Below are positions 29,070 to 40,152 of a stretch of 41,092 nt of DNA, in pieces. Position 1 is the first letter of the stretch; every line of letters starts with the position of its first letter. The position numbers and the translations under genes are program-made. The stretch spans positions 1-41,092 of the forward strand of contig JAOACK010000012.1 in the NCBI GenBank assembly GCA_026417875.1, in the 5' to 3' direction. Below the pieces are notes generated by a model that saw only the letters and a program-made list of their open reading frames with translations, searched no databases and had not been told where the DNA came from. The stretch is from Thermodesulfovibrionales bacterium. Lineage in GTDB: Bacteria; Nitrospirota; Thermodesulfovibrionia; Thermodesulfovibrionales; CALJEL01.

Positions 29070-31157
29070 TTACTTCTGTACTGCAGTATAAACTCCATCC
29101 CAGTCTTCAGGTGGTGGATTCAGGATATAATTTTTGCATCTTTCCATAAATACCATTGATGCCCTGTCATTAAATTTATTGAAAATTTCTCTGAATATTA
29201 CTTCTGCCTCAATGAATCTCCTTTTACTGTAAAGATAAAGGGCTTCTTCAAATCTCCGGATCATGTGGGAAATGGAAGACTCAGGTGATAGCACCTCATA
29301 GATATTAACAGGCTCCTTCCTGCCTTTTACCCTTATTAGGTCGAGCTCCCTGATAAGGAATTCACCTTCAGGAAGATTTTGGTATGTGAAGGAGCTTATG
29401 ATTATCTCTGTTCCATAAAATTTATTCAGTCCTTCAAGCCTCGAGGCAAGATTAACTGTATCTCCAACCGCTGTGTAATCAAACCTTATATCGGTTCCCA
29501 TGTTTCCAATTATGGCCTCACCTGTGTTAATTCCTATACCTATCCTTAGCTCAGGGTATCCTTCATTTTTTAGCCTTTCATTAAGGACTCTTAGTTCCCT
29601 TATCATTTCTAAAGCAGTGTAAACTGCTTTTTTTGCATGCTGGGGTAGCTCAAGCGGTACATTATAGATTGCCATTATAGCATCACCAATATACTTGTCA
29701 AGCATACCGCCGTTTTTAAGGACAATCCTTGTCATTGGATCAAGATATTTATTAAGAAGGCCTACAAGCCTTTCAGGCTCAAGGGCTTCTGAGATTGCTG
29801 TAAAGTCCCTTATATCAGAAAAGAGCACTGTTATAACCCTTTTTTCTCCACCGAGCTTCATGGCATCAGGATTCTTGATTATGATATTTACCAGCTCTGG
29901 TGATACATAGCTTGAGAAAGCCTTTTTGAGAAAGCGACTCCTCTTCTCTGTTATTAGATTTCTGTAGGCCTCTGAAACTGTATAAAAAAGAAAAAGGGAC
30001 ACAAAGGGATAGAGTACAGAGAGATCAAGAAAGTAGTTTTTAAAGATCATTATATTAAAGCTCAAGGAAAGTATAGTTATAAAAATGAAGAGACCAAGGG
30101 AGAAGAGGGTTTTAGAAGTTCTTGCTGAAAGTATGGCTAAGAGAAGGACTGGCATGCAGATAAAAAATATATCGAGCAAGGCTACCCAGGAATTATAAAT
30201 AAGATAATGGCCTTTAAGGATATTTGATGCCACCGTTGCATGGATCTCCACACCCGGCATTACTGGATCAAAGGGTGTATTGCGGACATCAGCAATGCCT
30301 ATCTCAGTGGCTCCTATAAAGACTAAGGAGCCCCTGAATTCTTCAGGTTCTATTCTTGACTTTATTAAATCAACAGCAGGGATTGTTTTAAATGAGCCAC
30401 CTTTACCATAGTAATTAATTGAAAGTGCACCGCTTTCATCAGAAGGTATAACTTCCTTTCCAAGAAGAAGCCTTGAAATGCCGAATTCTTCAATCTCTAC
30501 TATGATTTGTTCGTCTCTGTAACGCCTTATTGCCTGAAGTGCAAGGGATGGATATATATCACCGTTATAGATAAATAATAGATTTGCCTTTCTGATAAGA
30601 CCATCTTTATCTGGCAGAATATTAAAAAAACCTGTCTCTGCCTTTATGGACGGAATATTGAGCTCAGCATGGGGAAATTCCCTCAAAGGAAGGACTTTTA
30701 TGTCACCTTTTGTCTTTATGAGTTTTATCCTTGAATTTCTCAAAACTGAGAGACTTTTATCTGAAATGAATGTCTCTTCATCCCTCAGATAGTATCCTGT
30801 GATAACCTTTGAGGATTTATTGATTCTATCTGACAGGATTCTGTCAGACTCAGGATTTGATGGCTCTGAAAATACCATGTCAAGGCATATAACCTCTGCA
30901 TACCTTAGATTTTCAATTAATCTTGCAATAATCCTCCTGTCCCATGGCCATCTTCCCAGCTCATCTATGCTTTTTGAGTCAATGGCTACAATAAGTATTC
31001 TACCGTCAGGTTCAATCTCACCTCTAAGCCTGAATCTTGCATCTTTCAGTTTTAGTTCAATAGAATTCAGAAAATCAGGTTTAAAAAAATAAAGAAGAGA
31101 GGTCAGGATAATTGCTATTAAGGCTAAAAGAAGATAAAAAAGGCCCTTTGCCTTCAT
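29070..31157 (-). CDS. CHASE2-domain adenylate/guanylate cyclase
   Basis: Inner-membrane class III nucleotide cyclase of 695 aa. TM1 is at about residues 6-25. The extracytoplasmic CHASE2 sensor domain follows (about 30-320; RILIVAIDSKSIDELGRWPWDR is typical). Three TM helices (about 325-395) lead to a cyclase domain (about 435-610) with metal-binding Asp448 (LFSDIRDF) and Asp492 (DKYIGDAIMA) and the IGINTGEAIIGNMG and DYTAVGDTVNLASRLE motifs. The last 70 residues look like a helical repeat. The ATG at 31157 stands five bases after an extended -10, with no Shine-Dalgarno. FecR-like and ferredoxin genes lie nearby. Confidence 0.94.
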   Translation of the reverse strand: MKAKGLFYLLLALIAIILTSLLYFFKPDFLNSIELKLKDARFRLRGEIEPDGRILIVAIDSKSIDELGRWPWDRRIIARLIENLRYAEVICLDMVFSEPSNPESDRILSDRINKSSKVITGYYLRDEETFISDKSLSVLRNSRIKLIKTKGDIKVLPLREFPHAELNIPSIKAETGFFNILPDKDGLIRKANLLFIYNGDIYPSLALQAIRRYRDEQIIVEIEEFGISRLLLGKEVIPSDESGALSINYYGKGGSFKTIPAVDLIKSRIEPEEFRGSLVFIGATEIGIADVRNTPFDPVMPGVEIHATVASNILKGHYLIYNSWVALLDIFFICMPVLLLAILSARTSKTLFSLGLFIFITILSLSFNIMIFKNYFLDLSVLYPFVSLFLFYTVSEAYRNLITEKRSRFLKKAFSSYVSPELVNIIIKNPDAMKLGGEKRVITVLFSDIRDFTAISEALEPERLVGLLNKYLDPMTRIVLKNGGMLDKYIGDAIMAIYNVPLELPQHAKKAVYTALEMIRELRVLNERLKNEGYPELRIGIGINTGEAIIGNMGTDIRFDYTAVGDTVNLASRLEGLNKFYGTEIIISSFTYQNLPEGEFLIRELDLIRVKGRKEPVNIYEVLSPESSISHMIRRFEEALYLYSKRRFIEAEVIFREIFNKFNDRASMVFMERCKNYILNPPPEDWDGVYTAVQK

Positions 31158-32195: not shown

Positions 32196-33245
32196 TTATT
32201 CTGTAAGTTTCAGCAGTGTCTCAACATTCATAATATGTTTGCCCTCCGGATATTCCCTTTTATACTGAAACAACCTCTCCCTTGCCTGCCTTTTAAAACC
32301 CAGTTCATAAAGGGTCATGGCTGTAAGATAAAGGGCTGTTTCCCTCTGGGGTACCTCTGGATACTCCTCCAGTATAAGTAAATATTCTGCAAGGGCTGCT
32401 TCAGGATTTCTTAAAAATCTTGAATACACTGCTCCCCTCTCTAGTCTTGCATCAGATCTTATTTCAGGGTTATCTGAAAGGTCAAGGGCAATCTGATATA
32501 TATAAAGTGCCTCATCGTATTTTCCGCTATCAGCAAGATAATGGCCATAGTTTATATTCCATCTCGCAATTATATGGGGAAGGGCACCTGATATCTCCCA
32601 GTCCCTTGGTGGTTTCGGGCCTGTTATCTCAGAAAGTCCTGTCTTCGCTCTTTCAAGAGCCGTGCCTGGTTCAACCTTTACAGGATCAGCAGGAACATAA
32701 CCACGGGTATTCTGGACCATGGTATCTGGTTTGAGTGCCTTTTCTCCCTTCTCATAACCAGAAATGGATACCACATCCTCATTTCCAAAGAATACATTTG
32801 CCTGCCCCTGTGTGAGCATCATGAACTCTGTGCCTTTGATACCAGCAACTGCAGTGGGACTTTTCACCCGGTAATTGACAGTCTGACCTGTGAATCTAGT
32901 AATCGTTGCCCTTAGCTTTCCCTGTGTAATAGAAAATAATCCGTCCTTTCTTCCATCGCCAATTATGTATTCATTTATCTCAAACTCTGTATTCTCTGAA
33001 AGGGTGAAGGTGCTACCATCACTGAGTTTAATTAAAGCCCAGCTTTTTTGTTCTGTCTTTATCCAGTAACCTTTTTCAAGAGAAAGACCCCTTTTTGCCT
33101 TTTTATAAGGTATGCCAGCCTTTTCCCTGTAAAACACTGACCCATCAGTCTTTTCGATCTCACCGATTGAAGCAAAGGCAGTATGGAAGGTTAAAAAAAT
33201 AAAGACAACCATAAAGTAATATTTCATTTTCTTTATCTCTTTCAT
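32196..33245 (-). CDS. Exported FecR-domain protein with C-terminal TPRs
   Basis: A 349-aa periplasmic protein with an N-terminal signal peptide (cleavage likely after TAFA, about residue 25). Residues about 28-165 form a FecR domain (GEIEKTDGSVFYRE, WIKTEQKSWALIKLSDGSTFTLSENTEF, KSPTAVAGIKGTEF). This is the stand-alone form found beside CHASE2 cyclases, not the iron-citrate anti-sigma type. Residues about 220-345 are TPR-like helices (YGHYLADSGKYDEALYIYQ). The ATG has a strong GGGAGG Shine-Dalgarno. It is divergent from the envelope gene at 33340. Confidence 0.88.
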   Translation of the reverse strand: MKEIKKMKYYFMVVFIFLTFHTAFASIGEIEKTDGSVFYREKAGIPYKKAKRGLSLEKGYWIKTEQKSWALIKLSDGSTFTLSENTEFEINEYIIGDGRKDGLFSITQGKLRATITRFTGQTVNYRVKSPTAVAGIKGTEFMMLTQGQANVFFGNEDVVSISGYEKGEKALKPDTMVQNTRGYVPADPVKVEPGTALERAKTGLSEITGPKPPRDWEISGALPHIIARWNINYGHYLADSGKYDEALYIYQIALDLSDNPEIRSDARLERGAVYSRFLRNPEAALAEYLLILEEYPEVPQRETALYLTAMTLYELGFKRQARERLFQYKREYPEGKHIMNVETLLKLTE

Positions 33246-33339: not shown

Positions 33340-34791
33340 ATGGGGGTAATTTATATGAGGAAATTAGCTCTAATCGCTACAATTAGCTTAAGCATGGCTT
33401 TTTGCTCTATCTTGTATGCTCATACAATTGGCTTTAAAAAGGACATTGAAGTAGGGATAATAAAAAAAGATGGTATGAGGCTGAGTGGCATCTTAAAAGA
33501 ATTTCATGATGCAACTGGCATAATTATTCCAGAACCCAATGATAGAAACATCGAGCCCATTCCTCCAGAGTTTGAGGCCTTTCCAAAAAGTCTGACTGTA
33601 AAACCTCAGGAACCACCAAAGCTCCCTCAGCCAGTTCTTAAACTATCTCAAACAAAGGTGACAAAGGGTATTAAGTGTATTGATTCAGAAGGAGAGGCAG
33701 CTATAATTAATAATGATATCCCCTCTGCAAAGGCAGAGGCTATAGCAAGGGCAAAGTGGAATGCCATTGAACAGGTAGCGGGAGTGCAGGTAAGAGCTCA
33801 GACAGTTGTTCAGAACATGGCACTTGTTGATGATATGGTCACCAAACAGATAAAGGGTCTTGTAACAGGATACACATTAAAAAAGGGATGGCAGGAAGAT
33901 GGTGTTTATAAAGTGATTGCTAATGTGTGTATTGAGACTTCTCTGGCAGATGATGCAGCAAGTATGCTCGGCCTGAATAATTCTATTGCAGTATTCATAC
34001 CTGCAAGAAAGCCAAGGCTTGTGAGTGAGACCGAGGAGAGACAGATAAAAGGAACAGGAAAAAGAGAGACCTATGGCTTTAAGACAGAGGATGAATATGA
34101 GGAAAGTAATATTTTAAGCGAGACCATTATTGGAAGGTTAACAGAAAAGGGGTTAACAGTTATTGATATAGCACCCGGTAATATTACAGAGGCAAGGCAG
34201 GTTGAGGATGCTATAAGGAGTGGAAATTATCTCATCCTCAAGAGCTACATGTATCAATACCTTTCCAATATACTTCTGATAGGAAAGGTGGATTACACCA
34301 TATCCACAAAAAAGGGACAGGACATTGGCTATGGAATCTCTATGCCCTTTAATAATGTGACCACAAGACTTACTTACAGGATTGTAGCAAGGGATCCTGA
34401 AACAGGTCGGATAAGAGTGCTTGCCGCTGGTGAAGAAGAAGGAAAGGGACTTGCCCCCAATATAGAGGATGCAGCAGCCAGGAGCATGAAGGACCTTGCT
34501 GAGAAATTCACACCTGTTGTATTTGATAAACTCAGTCAATACATCCAGGGTATAACAAAGAGGGTCAGGATAAGGGTTCTCGATATAAAGGACACAGGAA
34601 CCAGTTTTGCTATTAAAGAGATCATTCAGAACACAGCCTGGGTTACAGAGGTAGAGGAAAAGGGGCTTGGCGAATTTATGATTGCCTATCCAGAAAACAC
34701 AGTCTATCTTGCAAACAGTCTCAGCCAGAAGGGATTTGAGGTGGTGGATTTTTCTAATTATTCTCTCACCCTGAGATACAGGGGCTTATAA
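33340..34791 (+). CDS. Exported protein with FlgT N-terminal-like domain
   Basis: A 483-aa exported protein with a signal peptide (about 1-27, cleavage after LYA). A proline-rich linker (about 64-108) precedes a domain at about 112-200 that matches the FlgT N-terminal fold by eye: SEGEAAIINNDIPSAKAEAIARAKWNAI, then AQTVVQNMALVDD, GLVTGYTLKKGW and GVYKVIANV. A middle domain (about 210-400) opens with NSIAVFIPA, and a C-terminal domain ends LTLRYRGL. In Vibrio, FlgT forms the H ring at the flagellar outer-membrane base; no flagellar gene is present here. An alternative ATG at 33355 has GGGGGT upstream. It heads the plus-strand envelope locus. Confidence 0.82.
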   Translation: MGVIYMRKLALIATISLSMAFCSILYAHTIGFKKDIEVGIIKKDGMRLSGILKEFHDATGIIIPEPNDRNIEPIPPEFEAFPKSLTVKPQEPPKLPQPVLKLSQTKVTKGIKCIDSEGEAAIINNDIPSAKAEAIARAKWNAIEQVAGVQVRAQTVVQNMALVDDMVTKQIKGLVTGYTLKKGWQEDGVYKVIANVCIETSLADDAASMLGLNNSIAVFIPARKPRLVSETEERQIKGTGKRETYGFKTEDEYEESNILSETIIGRLTEKGLTVIDIAPGNITEARQVEDAIRSGNYLILKSYMYQYLSNILLIGKVDYTISTKKGQDIGYGISMPFNNVTTRLTYRIVARDPETGRIRVLAAGEEEGKGLAPNIEDAAARSMKDLAEKFTPVVFDKLSQYIQGITKRVRIRVLDIKDTGTSFAIKEIIQNTAWVTEVEEKGLGEFMIAYPENTVYLANSLSQKGFEVVDFSNYSLTLRYRGL

Positions 34792-34792
34792 A

Positions 34793-35526
34793 ATGGAACT
34801 CTATGAGCAGATAAATAAATTAAGGGACTATCTATTGAGTCTACCTACCGGAAGATACATAGGTAAGATTATCCTTTTCGGAAGCCATGCAAAGGGATAT
34901 GCTACCAGGGATTCAGATATTGATATTCTTCTTATTACCATAAATGGTAAAGCTCTAAGGGAGGAGCTATTAGATAGTATTTATGATTTTATGACAGAAG
35001 AGGGCATTCCCATTGAGGTGGTGTTTGGAAATGTAAATGACATTTATTTTTCAAAAGACCCTTTTATATCAAATGTGCTCAGATACGGCGTGGAGGTATA
35101 TTCAATGAATGAATCAGAACTCAAAAGATCGGTCATAGAAGGTCTGTTAGGTCTTGCTGAAGAGTATCTTAAAGGAGCAGAAGAGATAGCAAACAGTGGT
35201 CATTTGAGGATAGCAATAGATGCAGGTTACAACGCAGCAGAACTGGCAGTAAAGGCCCTTATTCTTTTAAAGCAGGATGATTTGCCAGGTAGCCATGGTG
35301 GCATTGCAAGCCTTTTTGGGCCAGCTTTACATAAAGACTGCTGAAATAGAGAGAGCTTGGAAGGGCTCTAAACAGAGCACTTGAATTGAGAAACAGGGCA
35401 AGATACAGGATAGATGCTTCCATTAACAAAGAGGAAGTTTTTTCTGTGCTTGAGCTTGCAAAAAAGTTACTTTATTTTGCTACCTTAAAAAAGGACTCCT
35501 TTTTTGGAGGAGAACAAAAAATGTAA
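34793..35526 (+). pseudogene. MNT-HEPN nucleotidyltransferase fusion, broken by two frameshifts
   Basis: The first 183 codons encode a minimal nucleotidyltransferase (GSHAKGYATRDSDIDILL with the GS...DxD signature) and the first half of a HEPN domain (LRIAIDAGYNAAELAVKALIL, PGSHGGIASLFG). The frame then stops at 35344. HEPN sequence resumes in the next frame (QLYIKTAEIER) and, after a second single-base shift near 35355, in a third frame (GRALNRALELRNRARY..., to the stop at 35526). Both changes are consistent with one extra base each, the first at a T5G3 run. Either the gene is decayed or the assembly has indels. Its role beside envelope genes is unexplained. Confidence 0.83.
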
Positions 35527-35538
35527 AGGAGGTTATTG

Positions 35539-36729
35539 ATGGTAAAAAGAGCATTTATAATTTTCTTCCTTTTTCTTGGCTGTGCACCTATGGTAGTGAA
35601 GATTGATCCAACCACCTTTATTGTAGATACAGGTCCAAAAGAAAATATTCCTCCAGTATGCAGGTCTGCCTATGAATCCGTAACCCCAAAGGTAGCTGTA
35701 GCAAATTTTACAAACAATACCACCTTTGAATATGCAAGGGTTGTCCAGGAAAATGTGCGAGGAGCATCCCAGAGAACAGCAGTAGGTGGTGCTGCAGCAG
35801 GAGTGGCTCCTGGTGCAGCAGGCATTGTATGGGGCGTAAAGGAGAGAGCACAGTTTGAGAGAGAATCCCAGAGGATAGAGCGAGAATTTAATGCGAAACT
35901 TTCAGAGAGTGTTGAAGATGGAATAACCGATGAGATAGTTAATATGGGCGGTGCAAAGGTTTATACAAGGAGTGAGATGAAGAAGGTGCTTGAGGAGCAT
36001 AAATTCCAGGCATCAGGTCTCGTTGATGAATCCACACTTGTTCAGTTAGGAAGGATTGCTGGAGTTAGATACATTATCACGGGTTCAGTAAATAATGTGG
36101 ACCTTAAGTGGGTTACCCTTGAGGAGGCAAGGGCAGCGGCAAAGGATATATTTGGAAAGGTTGGCATGGTAATGGCAGCTGGCATGGAGGCACAGGAGGG
36201 CTGGAATATTAATGCTGAGATTTCCATAAGAATAATCGATGTTGAGACAGGAGAGATACTTTTTTCAAAGATTGTCCGCGGCAGGCATGTAATTGGAAAG
36301 ATGGCCTATCCGAATTTTGATGCGATGATAGGTGGAATAAAAAAGGCTGCATCAAATGCTATTGCTGATGCAAGACCAGAACTGTCAAAATGGTTTACTG
36401 TTAAGGGTTATATCCTCCAGACCAGAACCTCTCCTGATGGCAGACAGAGGGCTGCACTCGTGAGCATAGGTGAGAAGCATGGCCTGAAACCTAATTCTGA
36501 GCTTATAGTTTATACCTTCCAGGAGATTCAGGATCCCTTTACAGGAAAGCCATCCTGTGACACAGTCAGACTTCCGGTAAGGCTCATTGTTACAGAACAG
36601 CTTCAGGCAGACAAGGCCTGGACAATAATAGAGGGCAATCCAGACCAGGTCAAGCGTGTGAGGATGGGCCAGCTTGTAGAAAGGGCACCTCTAAGAGGAA
36701 AGGGTTTCTTCCAGACTATAGGTCATTGA
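35539..36729 (+). CDS. CsgG-like outer-membrane lipoprotein with FlgT C-terminal-like domain
   Basis: A 396-aa lipoprotein with a very short signal and lipobox FLGC (Cys15); Ala at +2 fits sorting to the outer membrane. Residues about 45-290 resemble CsgG/HfaB-type domains: KVAVANFTNNT, a Gly/Ala-rich hydrophobic insertion (GGAAAGVAPGAAGIVWG), a helix ending GAKVYTRSEMKKVLEEH, GVRYIITGSVN and IRIIDVETGEILFSK. The last 90 residues match the FlgT C-terminal pattern (LVSIGEKHGLKPNSELIVYT, DPFTGKP). The start is the ATG at 35539, six bases after AAGGAGG, not the TTG at 35536. It may form a pore or ring in the outer membrane; oligomer formation is inferred. Confidence 0.84.
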   Translation: MVKRAFIIFFLFLGCAPMVVKIDPTTFIVDTGPKENIPPVCRSAYESVTPKVAVANFTNNTTFEYARVVQENVRGASQRTAVGGAAAGVAPGAAGIVWGVKERAQFERESQRIEREFNAKLSESVEDGITDEIVNMGGAKVYTRSEMKKVLEEHKFQASGLVDESTLVQLGRIAGVRYIITGSVNNVDLKWVTLEEARAAAKDIFGKVGMVMAAGMEAQEGWNINAEISIRIIDVETGEILFSKIVRGRHVIGKMAYPNFDAMIGGIKKAASNAIADARPELSKWFTVKGYILQTRTSPDGRQRAALVSIGEKHGLKPNSELIVYTFQEIQDPFTGKPSCDTVRLPVRLIVTEQLQADKAWTIIEGNPDQVKRVRMGQLVERAPLRGKGFFQTIGH

Positions 36730-36807
36730 TGTGAAAATTACCTTTACAACTGAGAGAGCTCATTATATTATAAGTTGAGAATATGAGCTATCTTTAAGGA
36801 GGTCTTT

Positions 36808-38022
36808 ATGAAAAAGCTTTCTTTAATAACACTTCTTCAAATGGTAATCTTACTTTTTATTTCAGGATGTGCAAAAAAGCCTGTTGAAAAATGCCTTGCT
36901 CCAGAAGATAATGCTCCACACCATTATCTAATGGGTATGGAAGCCCTTGAAAGAGGAAAGACAGATACAGCAATAGAGAAATTTGAAAGGGCGCTATACT
37001 GTGATGAAAAATTCTCAATGGCACAATCTGCTATGGCAATAGCCCTTGCTGAGAAGACAAGGCTGCAGAAGGATCCAAAATTCAGGCAGATTGAGCTGGA
37101 GAGAATAGAGGAAAGGCTTAAGAAGGCAAGAAAGCTTATGAGGAGTCCAGAGGATCAATTTGACTACAATTTGGCAGTAATGAGAGTGAATACTATATTA
37201 AAAATTGATGACTGGCTTAATAAGGTAGAGGATGCCTACAGGGACACAATGAAGCTCAAGGTAGATGAAAGGAAGATGATCTATTATCAGGGAACAGAGG
37301 CAGGCCATTACTTTATGGGTATTGCCTATCTCGATGCCCTCGAATTTCAGAAGGCAAGGGACAGGTTTGCCGATGTACTAAATGCAAGGCGTGAAGGAAA
37401 GTGGCATGCACCTGCTGATAGGGCCTGGAAAAAGACAGATAAGATTGTCAGGGCAATGGCAGGTATCACTATTGGAGATGTTGGTAAAAAGATTGCCATT
37501 AAGGATGCTATAACAAGGGGAGATCTCGCAGCCCTTTTAATTGATGAGCTGAAACTTGATAAACTCTTTGCTGGCAGGATCCCTGTCCGTACAGAGGTGG
37601 AAAAACTCAGGCCAGAGTTTGTCCCTGCTGATATAATGGATCATCCCTTTAAGGAAGAGATAATCACTATTCTTAAATGGAAGGTTAGGGGTCTTGAGCC
37701 AAAGTATGATGAGACCACAAAGGCCTATCTCTTCAAGCCAGAGGATTTAGTAAAACGTGGTGAGATGGCATTCATCCTTGAGGATGTGCTTATAAAAATA
37801 ACAGGTGATGAAAGGATTGCTACTGCCTATTTCGGTCATGAGAGGTCACCATTTCCTGATGTGAGACCGACATCACCTCTTTACAATGCAGTTATGAACA
37901 TGACAACCCGCGGCATAATGGAGCCGGAGCTTTCTGGTGAATTTAGAATAGATGATCCGGTTGATGGTGCAGAGGCACTCCTTGCAATAAGGGTCTTAAA
38001 ACAGAGAATGAATATTTATTAA
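36808..38022 (+). CDS. TPR and S-layer-homology lipoprotein
   Basis: A 404-aa lipoprotein (lipobox ISGC, Cys21; Ala at +2). Residues about 40-90 form a TPR (YLMGMEALERGKTDTAIEKFERALYCDE), and more helical repeat follows to about 215 (YFMGIAYLDALEFQKARDRF). The C-terminal third has SLH-like segments: ITRGDLAALLIDEL, FVPADIMDHPFKEEIITILKWKVRGL, VKRGEMAFILEDVL and FPDVRPTSPLYNAVMNMTTRGIM. SLH domains usually bind cell-wall polymers, here from a lipid anchor. A strong AAGGAGG precedes the ATG. It is followed after 14 bases by the LPP20-like gene. Confidence 0.87.
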   Translation: MKKLSLITLLQMVILLFISGCAKKPVEKCLAPEDNAPHHYLMGMEALERGKTDTAIEKFERALYCDEKFSMAQSAMAIALAEKTRLQKDPKFRQIELERIEERLKKARKLMRSPEDQFDYNLAVMRVNTILKIDDWLNKVEDAYRDTMKLKVDERKMIYYQGTEAGHYFMGIAYLDALEFQKARDRFADVLNARREGKWHAPADRAWKKTDKIVRAMAGITIGDVGKKIAIKDAITRGDLAALLIDELKLDKLFAGRIPVRTEVEKLRPEFVPADIMDHPFKEEIITILKWKVRGLEPKYDETTKAYLFKPEDLVKRGEMAFILEDVLIKITGDERIATAYFGHERSPFPDVRPTSPLYNAVMNMTTRGIMEPELSGEFRIDDPVDGAEALLAIRVLKQRMNIY

Positions 38023-38036
38023 TCAGGAGGTTAAAA

Positions 38037-38969
38037 ATGAAAAGAGTTATAGTACTTATTTTTTCAATCCTTCTAATGGCATGCCTTGCCCTTGCCCAGC
38101 AGGACATACACCAGCATACGGCTGAGCCATCTCCACAGATATCAGCCACATTCCAGCTTGCAAATCAGTGGCTCCAGCAGAATAATCTCTCTATCACAAC
38201 AACACCTGAACAGGCATTTGTAAATGATTATCTTCTTGTTGCAGCAGAGGGACTTCCCTCACCTACAGCAAGGACACCAGGACAGAGAAGGATCACTGCT
38301 GAGCGTGCTGCAACTGCACTTGCATACAGACAGCTTGCTGAGATACTTGAAGGAGTTGCTGTTGTTGGCGACACCCTTGTTAAGGATGCAGAGCTCCAGT
38401 ATGATGTTGTAAGGACAGCAGTTGCTGGTTTTATAAAAGGTGCAGAGATTGTTTATAAAGAATGGAACCCCCAGGAAGAGGTTGCCCTTGTAATAGTAAA
38501 AGTAGGAATGTCAGGACCGAAGGGTTTTGGCAGCCTGATGTATGAAAAGATAATGGGCGACCCGAATATAAAAAAAGACCTACTTAAACCAGAACCCTCT
38601 TTTAAAACAAAGCCTGTTACTCTTGAAGAGAATTATGATGGTCTTATAATTGATGCCACAGAGGTGAATTTCAGGCCTGCTCTTATTAACAGGATATTCA
38701 CACCAAAAGGAGATATCCTTTATGACCCATCAAAGGTGAGTCAGAAGGTCCTTGTAGAACAGGGCTGTGGTGAATATACAAACAGTATAGAGAAGGCAAA
38801 GGCAGCCCTTGAGAAGAGGGGGGTAAAAAATCCCCTTATTGTGAAGGCAGCTGGGACAGTCACTCCTTCAGACCTGCAGGTCTCTGAGGAAGATGCAGTG
38901 AGAATCTATTCAGCAAACCAGAAAGCCAATTTCTTTGCCTCTGCAAAGGTAGCCTTTGTCCTGAGATAA
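38037..38969 (+). CDS. Exported LPP20/FlgP-like protein
   Basis: A 310-aa exported protein. The signal peptide could be cleaved after ALA (about residue 20) or processed as a lipoprotein at Cys16 (LMAC, an imperfect lipobox). Residues about 80-160 have the LPP20 pattern: RRITAERAATALAYRQLAEILEGVAVVGDTLVKDAELQYDVV, GFIKGAEIVYKEW and VALVIVKVGM. FlgP of Vibrio and Campylobacter belongs to this family. The C-terminal half (YDGLIIDATEVNFRPALINRIF) resembles a second domain often found with it. The ATG has an AGGAGG Shine-Dalgarno. Confidence 0.83.
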   Translation: MKRVIVLIFSILLMACLALAQQDIHQHTAEPSPQISATFQLANQWLQQNNLSITTTPEQAFVNDYLLVAAEGLPSPTARTPGQRRITAERAATALAYRQLAEILEGVAVVGDTLVKDAELQYDVVRTAVAGFIKGAEIVYKEWNPQEEVALVIVKVGMSGPKGFGSLMYEKIMGDPNIKKDLLKPEPSFKTKPVTLEENYDGLIIDATEVNFRPALINRIFTPKGDILYDPSKVSQKVLVEQGCGEYTNSIEKAKAALEKRGVKNPLIVKAAGTVTPSDLQVSEEDAVRIYSANQKANFFASAKVAFVLR

Positions 38970-38982
38970 AAAGGAGTTGGGG

Positions 38983-39441
38983 TTGAGGAAGAGAGATAGA
39001 TTAAAGGTTTTAAAACTCAGCCCCAACATTTTATTTTTTCTTATACTGATATGTGCAGTTCATGTAATTACAAACCGCGCCTCTTCAGCAGAACTCTCAA
39101 GGGATCAGGAGCAGAAGATAGAAAAGATAGCCCTGATTCTTTCAGAAGAGCTTGCCAGCAGAAATATAAAAGGTGTAACCCTAAAAAACTTTTTTGACCT
39201 GAGGGGCAGGACAGGCTCCTTTGAGAAGATACTCTCTGAAAAACTCAGAAAGGCCCTCATAAAATTCAGTAAAAGAAGATTTAAGGTTTTCACAAAGGAT
39301 TCCGAATTTATTATAAAAGGCACAGTTATACCATATTCTGAAAAAAACAGATTTGACCTGAAGATAGAACTCATTAAGATAAAGACACAATCACAAGATG
39401 AAGAGGTTCTTTTTACATATACAGGAATTTTTAAAAGATGA
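38983..39441 (+). CDS. Exported FlgO-like small protein
   Basis: About 152 aa, with a hydrophobic segment (about 13-32, ILFFLILICAVHVI) acting as a signal peptide or anchor. The rest (EKIALILSEELASRNIKGVTLKNFFDLRGRTGSFEKILSEKLRKALI, then FEFIIKG-type beta strands) has the layout of FlgO/CsgG-like domains, where a helix pair precedes beta strands. I place the start at the TTG at 38983, six bases after AAGGAG; another TTG at 38977 abuts the Shine-Dalgarno and cannot be used. The similarity to FlgO is weak by eye. Confidence 0.65.
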   Translation: MRKRDRLKVLKLSPNILFFLILICAVHVITNRASSAELSRDQEQKIEKIALILSEELASRNIKGVTLKNFFDLRGRTGSFEKILSEKLRKALIKFSKRRFKVFTKDSEFIIKGTVIPYSEKNRFDLKIELIKIKTQSQDEEVLFTYTGIFKR

Positions 39442-39696: not shown

Positions 39697-40152
39697 ATGG
39701 GTTATTTATTTTTCCTCTTTGCACTTGGCAATCCTGTTTATACTGCTCATGACCCTAGATATACTGCATGGAGACCAGGTAGAAAAGAGACAACTCTTTC
39801 AGGCTCAAATCAGTATGCCTTTAGAGGACTTGCAATAAAGGCAAAATGGAGAGCAGTCACAGAGGATGTCAAAAACCATAAAAAGGCTCCAATCACTGAT
39901 AAAAGGGTTTTGCTTGGCATTGCAATCTTTTTAATAATCATAGGAGTGATGGCATTAAACCCCGCATTAAGTCTTTTGCTTTTTATAATTTCTGGTGTAA
40001 TTTCAATAGTGGCAATAATTAAAGGTAAGGGATGGGTTAGAGTCATAGCTTTAGTTATATGTATTCTTTCAGTTATATTGATAATATCAGTAATGACAAA
40101 GGCAAAAAGTCACATGGATATATACAGAAAGAGCATTGAAGAGTTGAAATGA
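39697..40152 (+). CDS. Uncharacterised membrane protein (151 aa)
   Basis: I do not recognise the family. The N-terminus is short and hydrophobic (MGYLFFLFALGNPVY), followed by a polar stretch (about 16-68) and two strong membrane helices (about 70-105 and 112-132), then a charged tail. A good AAGGAG Shine-Dalgarno precedes the ATG. Its stop overlaps the start of the next gene (ATGA), indicating coupled translation. Confidence 0.72.
   Translation: MGYLFFLFALGNPVYTAHDPRYTAWRPGRKETTLSGSNQYAFRGLAIKAKWRAVTEDVKNHKKAPITDKRVLLGIAIFLIIIGVMALNPALSLLLFIISGVISIVAIIKGKGWVRVIALVICILSVILIISVMTKAKSHMDIYRKSIEELK

Follow-up and report, generated by a model that had tools for sequence, protein, structure and literature searches.

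A gene cluster for a proposed flagellum-independent outer-membrane scaffold of FlgP-, FlgT-, CsgG- and SLH-type proteins in Nitrospirota

FlgO, FlgP and FlgT have been studied as flagellar accessories: jointly they form the H-ring of Vibrio, and FlgP forms the basal disc of Campylobacter and Helicobacter. For the FlgP family, a correlation is reported between ring formation and an insert that separates the SHS2 helix from the second strand (PMC12222027). Ring lipoproteins include CsgG, GNA1162 and PelC, the last of which assembles as twelve lipoproteins in a ring that sits on a separate barrel (PMC12141448), and the SLH regions of outer-membrane proteins are known elsewhere to tether the membrane to the wall (PMC10628300). 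Here we describe a cluster of five genes in which proteins resembling these parts are encoded together, found in the 41,092-nucleotide contig G000:C12 of the 2.0-Mb draft genome G000 of a Thermodesulfovibrionales bacterium; the window that we analysed is this entire contig. The products, named by the start of their open reading frames (Table 1), are a FlgT_N-like protein (33340), a CsgG-like lipoprotein (35536), a TPR lipoprotein with an SLH region (36808), a FlgP homologue (38037) and a small FlgO-like protein (38977). This apparently flagellum-independent module probably builds an uncharacterised envelope structure, and we propose with moderate confidence that the structure is an outer-membrane scaffold with an envelope role, comprising an FlgP/FlgT-type ring or disc and an SLH wall tether, and switched by a Crp-type regulator and a cyclase.

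The distribution of the cluster was followed in 41 related genomes and, for the SLH lipoprotein, in a wider census of 396 genomes sampled from the phylum Nitrospirota, where a match at E <= 1e-30 defined a carrier. Forty-five of the 396 genomes were carriers. The flagellar P-ring gene flgI, a proxy only for the flagellum, was present in 19 carriers and absent from the other 26, versus present in 220 of the 351 non-carriers, a comparison of counts that is confounded by kinship. Close homologues of 33340 occurred in 10 of the 41 relatives (four with flgI, six without). Fuller clusters, which include a transglutaminase gene and additional genes of the FlgT, FlgO and CsgG types, were present in several genomes that are at least 96% complete and lack flgI; in one of these, G002, the consecutive genes are Crp, barrel, FlgT, CsgG, SLH, FlgP, CsgG, transglutaminase, FlgO and beta-helix. 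Because more than half of the carriers lack flgI, fuller clusters stand in flgI-less genomes and the pairing of the SLH and FlgP genes is kept (below), the module appears not to be tied to flagella; a flagella-only role is rejected by the flgI census. The original prediction of a locus without flagellar genes and not restricted to flagellated relatives thus agrees with the census and with the window, in which no flagellar gene was seen as far as it is annotated, although the genome itself does have flgI on a separate contig (G000:C1).

As predicted, the five proteins are encoded in one direction and all appear to be exported: each has a hydrophobic export signal at its N-terminus, with a cysteine lipobox recognised by eye in 35536 and 36808, and gaps of 78, 14 and 7 bases separate the genes from 35536 to 38977. 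Within the class, 27 genomes have a following gene on the contig, and in every one of them FlgP comes next after SLH (a hand count, in which the tandem SLH copy of G140 was allowed for). The two genes also lie near each other in more distant families: f25 shows the order FlgP, SLH, transglutaminase and FlgP, to which CsgG-like and FecR genes are often added, and in f29 the SLH gene is flanked by FlgP genes. Since gene order is kept across families, a chance grouping is, on this comparison, excluded. Some clusters that retain the SLH and FlgP genes are missing the CsgG-like gene, and a gene for a putative barrel of about 250 amino acids, conserved upstream in several loci, was not seen in the window. 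Six metagenome-assembled genomes titled Syntrophaceae or Deltaproteobacteria (L005-L010) have a FlgT-CsgG pair near unrelated genes, with no SLH or FlgP gene alongside. Five of the six carry the SLH lipoprotein elsewhere (39-41% identical); only two of these have sufficient sequence around the gene, and in both a FlgP gene lies nearby. Titles of such assemblies are possibly wrong; L004, titled delta proteobacterium, resembles the Nitrospirota version. By eye, the genes upstream of the FlgT-CsgG pair in L005 read as yidC, jag and mnmE. Viral contigs held no relatives of the SLH protein, and a viral origin was rejected.

The FlgP-like character foreseen for 38037 was confirmed by profile comparison with FlgP chains in the PDB, which gave matches over the SHS2-like domain of 1.5e-11 to 8.6e-5 (C. 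jejuni 9hmf_C, 1.5e-11; Vibrio 8z5n, 5e-8); no Pfam family was matched. Eight relatives are 55-72% identical to 38037, and its alignment to C. jejuni FlgP, gap-free over 81 positions, appears to span the ring-insert stretch. The FlgP domain is shared with the basal disc of Campylobacter and Helicobacter, whereas the extra conserved C-terminal domain of 38037 and the lack of a tie to flagella set the cluster apart, as does the fact that the disc partners FlgQ and PflA were not seen in it. The FlgO identity of 38977 is the weakest of the five: the protein itself had no significant match, and none to Pfam FlgO above the cut-off, while 2 of 10 members of its family did match FlgO (best 1.6e-4). 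Compared by profile with the CsgG-like alignment, the FlgO-like family returned nothing. Its gene lies 3' of the FlgP gene in the sister genome G001, whereas other genomes have it at different places of the cluster. Of the four profiles proposed for the locus (FlgT, FlgO, LPP20 and CsgG), three are matched, with FlgO weak.

The FlgT-like domains are divided between 33340 and 35536. The match of 33340 to Pfam FlgT_N (7.8e-4) falls under the cut-off, but a FlgT-like paralogue in a related cluster lies above it, and the predicted structure of 33340 (pTM 0.42) has FlgT 3w1e as its top match (5e-9), with CsgG (1e-6) and Lpp20 (6.5e-4) lower. The protein comprises a FlgP/SHS2-like domain (residues ~112-205), a CsgG/FlgT-M-like middle and a small alpha/beta C-terminal domain, is 48-72% identical to 15 relatives, and aligned weakly over the ring-insert stretch of C. 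jejuni FlgP (E 0.027). As predicted, 35536 is a CsgG-like lipoprotein with a FlgT-C-like tail: it matches Pfam CsgG at 2.1e-11, above the cut-off, and LpoB at 7e-6, and the gene at its position in G012 matches both CsgG (7.9e-36) and FlgT_C (1.2e-8, above the cut-off). The best PDB match of its model, along the length, is Vibrio FlgT (Foldseek 1.6e-13, TM 0.29), followed by CsgG, PelC and GNA1162. FlgT_N, FlgT_M and FlgT_C are thus not found in one protein, FlgT_N falling in 33340 (under the cut-off) and both CsgG/FlgT-M and FlgT-C in 35536 together with its relatives, which makes the split over two genes noted in the original prediction reasonable. When alignments were compared as profiles, the FlgT-like one matched those of FlgP and CsgG weakly. 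Like the Vibrio H-ring, the cluster encodes a FlgP homologue, FlgT_N and FlgT-M/C-like domains and a FlgO-like protein together; unlike it, the cluster has the FlgT-like domains on two genes and an added SLH lipoprotein, stands without nearby flagellar genes and is kept in flgI-less genomes.

With CsgG, PelC and GNA1162, 35536 shares the domain fold and the character of an outer-membrane lipoprotein, but it differs in its FlgT-C-like tail and in its model, of moderate confidence, where a helix at 195-220 replaces the first membrane hairpin of CsgG and the second is missing. For this reason the window's version probably forms no barrel, and a CsgG pore in it was rejected. No curlin was found in the carriers tested and no Pel genes were recognised. 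In some relatives' CsgG-like proteins the first hairpin is, by eye, possibly kept. The position of 35536 is held by two very different CsgG-like types, about 60% and about 25% identical to that of the window (L032, L037, L043 and others); the window's type is common to the Syntrophaceae assemblies, which suggests exchange.

The candidate tether 36808 was correctly anticipated as a TPR-SLH lipoprotein, with Pfam matches to SLH (1.1e-13, above the cut-off) and TPR, and a lipobox that reads ISGC. It is 64-73% identical to nine relatives. Three SLH-like repeats were recognised by eye; at the arginine of the TRAE-type motif, R is found in repeat 1 everywhere and R or K in repeat 2, and the residue is absent from repeat 3. 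Each carrier among the 41 genomes has a single SLH match, invariably in a 36808-type gene; the one weak exception is in a non-carrier. Anchoring of an S-layer was rejected on this single SLH place per carrier and on the lack of a pyruvyltransferase (below). In L100 (G140) the SLH lipoprotein gene is duplicated in tandem, the second copy being longer (655 amino acids). The finding adds an SLH-bearing outer-membrane lipoprotein to Nitrospirota, a phylum that we take to belong to the Gracilicutes. The SLH tether known so far, OmpM, reportedly does not occur in Gracilicutes (PMC10628300); 36808 resembles OmpM-type tethers in having an SLH region in an outer-membrane-anchored protein, plausibly a wall tether, and differs from them as a lipoprotein with TPRs and no beta-barrel.

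For oligomerisation, contacts, cell-wall binding, regulation and role, we infer the following arrangement. Rings or a disc under the outer membrane would arise by polymerisation of 38037 and of the FlgP-like domain in 33340, much as FlgP polymerises in flagellar basal discs. On the inner leaflet, 35536 would assemble as an acylated ring facing the periplasm and would have no membrane barrel of its own. The lipid of 36808 would anchor it in the outer membrane, its TPRs holding the FlgP layer and its SLH region gripping the cell wall. The scaffold would likely serve to reinforce or organise the envelope locally, and would be switched on by a Crp-type regulator together with a sensor made of the CHASE2 cyclase and FecR. 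We favour a ring or disc because of the FlgP alignment over the ring-insert stretch and the PelC-like ring lipoproteins. More tentatively, the cluster may build a ring or disc machine of its own, separate from flagella, in which FlgP/FlgT-type polymers lie under the outer membrane and the SLH lipoprotein is the wall tether. Such a machine would occur across Nitrospirota and in some Desulfobacterota, and could represent the type of ancestor that was recruited for flagellar outer-membrane rings.

Several points weigh against the scaffold. The proteins are known here from genes and models, and no ring has been observed for them; some FlgP-fold proteins, such as Lpp20, are not known to form rings. 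Both models are moderate (pTM 0.67 for 35536 and 0.42 for 33340), the ring-insert stretch of 33340 has low model confidence, and the TM-scores to FlgT are low (0.29 for 35536, 0.22 for 33340), and we therefore limit the claim to local domain similarity. The pyruvyltransferase PF04230 was not detected in the carriers among the 41 genomes, which makes the usual pyruvylated SLH ligand unlikely, and OmpA-type domains are present in every genome checked, so the SLH protein is not the sole possible tether. The SLH region thus need not bind the wall and need not be the main tether.

The same genes could instead serve envelope surveillance, the lipoproteins and FlgP/FlgT-like proteins sensing the state of the outer membrane or wall and the CHASE2 cyclase, FecR, Crp and exported caspase-fold proteins (CHAT or C14) responding, with no ring machine needed. 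A Crp-like gene (cNMP_binding plus HTH_Crp_2) directly upstream of the cluster in 15 loci, the FecR and CHASE2-cyclase neighbours, the exported TPR-CHAT or WD40-caspase proteins within or near several related clusters and the remnant of a CHAT gene seen in the window all fit such a system. So does the BiofilmReg operon of Burkholderia, which regulates biofilms and likewise pairs a FecR-domain protein with a CHASE2 sensor, though the locus described here has a cyclase instead of a histidine kinase and adjoins FlgP/SLH genes. The steadiest pair, however, is structural (SLH and FlgP), the signalling genes differ between families, none of the five core proteins has a signalling domain and Crp-type genes are common; we regard surveillance as unlikely.

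Less likely still is an export complex, in which the CsgG-like protein would pass protein or polysaccharide across the outer membrane, either by itself or surrounding another protein's barrel, such as that encoded upstream in some relatives, and the other parts would form a periplasmic collar. The CsgG match above the cut-off, the structure matches to PelC, GNA1162 and CsgG, and the gene for a putative barrel that precedes the cluster in several loci speak for it. The 35536 model lacks the hairpins, however, the window shows no such barrel gene, neither a secreted substrate nor a synthase gene was recognised, and some SLH-FlgP clusters do without a CsgG-like gene; curli export in particular was rejected, since curlin repeats were not found in carriers among the 41 genomes. 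A flagellar outer-membrane ring (H-ring or basal disc) in flagellated carriers, with another use in the rest, would suit the window's own genome, which has flgI and, at E<1, no FlgP-like protein besides 38037, and would match the joint action of FlgO, FlgP and FlgT in Vibrio. We consider it the least probable of these alternatives and quite improbable, given the flgI counts in carriers and non-carriers, the fuller clusters in flgI-less genomes and the separation of cluster and flgI in its own genome. The original prediction of a non-flagellar outer-membrane ring or export complex is thus supported in part, as a flagellum-independent envelope module with homology to H-ring and basal disc, while its export channel is not supported. 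Although relatives of every part are known, we found no description of their combination, of the SLH tether or of a flagellum-independent role in the literature searched, where, with partial coverage, we found no paper joining FlgP, FlgT and CsgG and none naming two of FlgP, SLH domain and Nitrospir-. The conserved flgI-less clusters suggest that relatives of FlgO, FlgP and FlgT serve outside motility, and in flgI-less carriers their membrane role could be tested without a motor.

Table 1. Features of the cluster and its surroundings in the window.
Feature	Position	Strand	Basis
CHASE2-adenylate/guanylate cyclase, likely associated cyclic-nucleotide sensor	29070..31157	-	CHASE2 5.3e-62, Guanylate_cyc 3.9e-26
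FecR-TPR exported protein, divergent neighbour, likely associated	32196..33245	-	Pfam FecR 2.1e-11
FlgT_N-like exported protein, 483 amino acids	33340..34791	+	Pfam FlgT_N under cut-off, structure model, relatives
MNT-HEPN (nucleotidyltransferase + HEPN), frameshifted, inserted between FlgT-like and CsgG-like genes	34793..35526	+	Broken reading frame
CsgG/PelC/FlgT-M-like outer-membrane lipoprotein, FlgT-C-like tail	35536..36729 (ATG 35539)	+	Pfam, structure model
TPR lipoprotein with C-terminal SLH region, candidate outer-membrane/cell-wall tether	36808..38022	+	Pfam SLH, TPR, lipobox
FlgP homologue with extra, very conserved C-terminal domain	38037..38969	+	Profile versus PDB
Small exported FlgO-like protein	38977..39441	+	Weak, via family members
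Chimeric open reading frame, probable relic	39697..40152	+	phmmer
TPR protein cut by contig end	40149..41090	+	Pfam, counterpart comparison

Among the genes around the cluster, FecR also lies beside it in G001 and G030, with weak FecR matches alongside distant clusters, and the cyclase gene is next to FecR and the cluster in G000, G001 and G030; the module is possibly regulated by cyclic AMP. FecR 32196 matched Leptospira Lsa33/LipL45 (~1e-10), and 33340 matched LipL46 weakly (4.7e-4), both far under the family cut-offs. The MNT-HEPN gene is an insertion outside the module; it is intact in the sister genome (240 amino acids, L031:1160-1882), and its frameshifts in the window could be real decay or assembly error. 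Downstream, residues 7-62 of the 39697 product match an internal part of exported TPR-CHAT proteins (L083_14 residues 818-873, phmmer 3.6e-23; L037_2, 3e-19) and residues 65-145 a small membrane protein. Because this reading frame starts with a piece of a CHAT protein, which related loci encode downstream of FlgP, it resembles a deletion relic and suggests that a CHAT gene formerly stood here. The counterpart of 40149 closes the same cluster in related genomes and has TPR and PDZ domains in L113:852-2771.

In the f9 genomes the cluster includes further exported TPR, PDZ-TPR and SIMPL proteins (L112:1759-3747, L113:852-2771, L083:10896-11603). MlaE/MlaD lipid-transport genes lie divergent and just upstream of the cluster in L032 and similar f12 loci. 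The transglutaminase-like protein of the clusters has a homologue in the window's own genome, on another contig (G000:C69:6394-8004, 59% identity).

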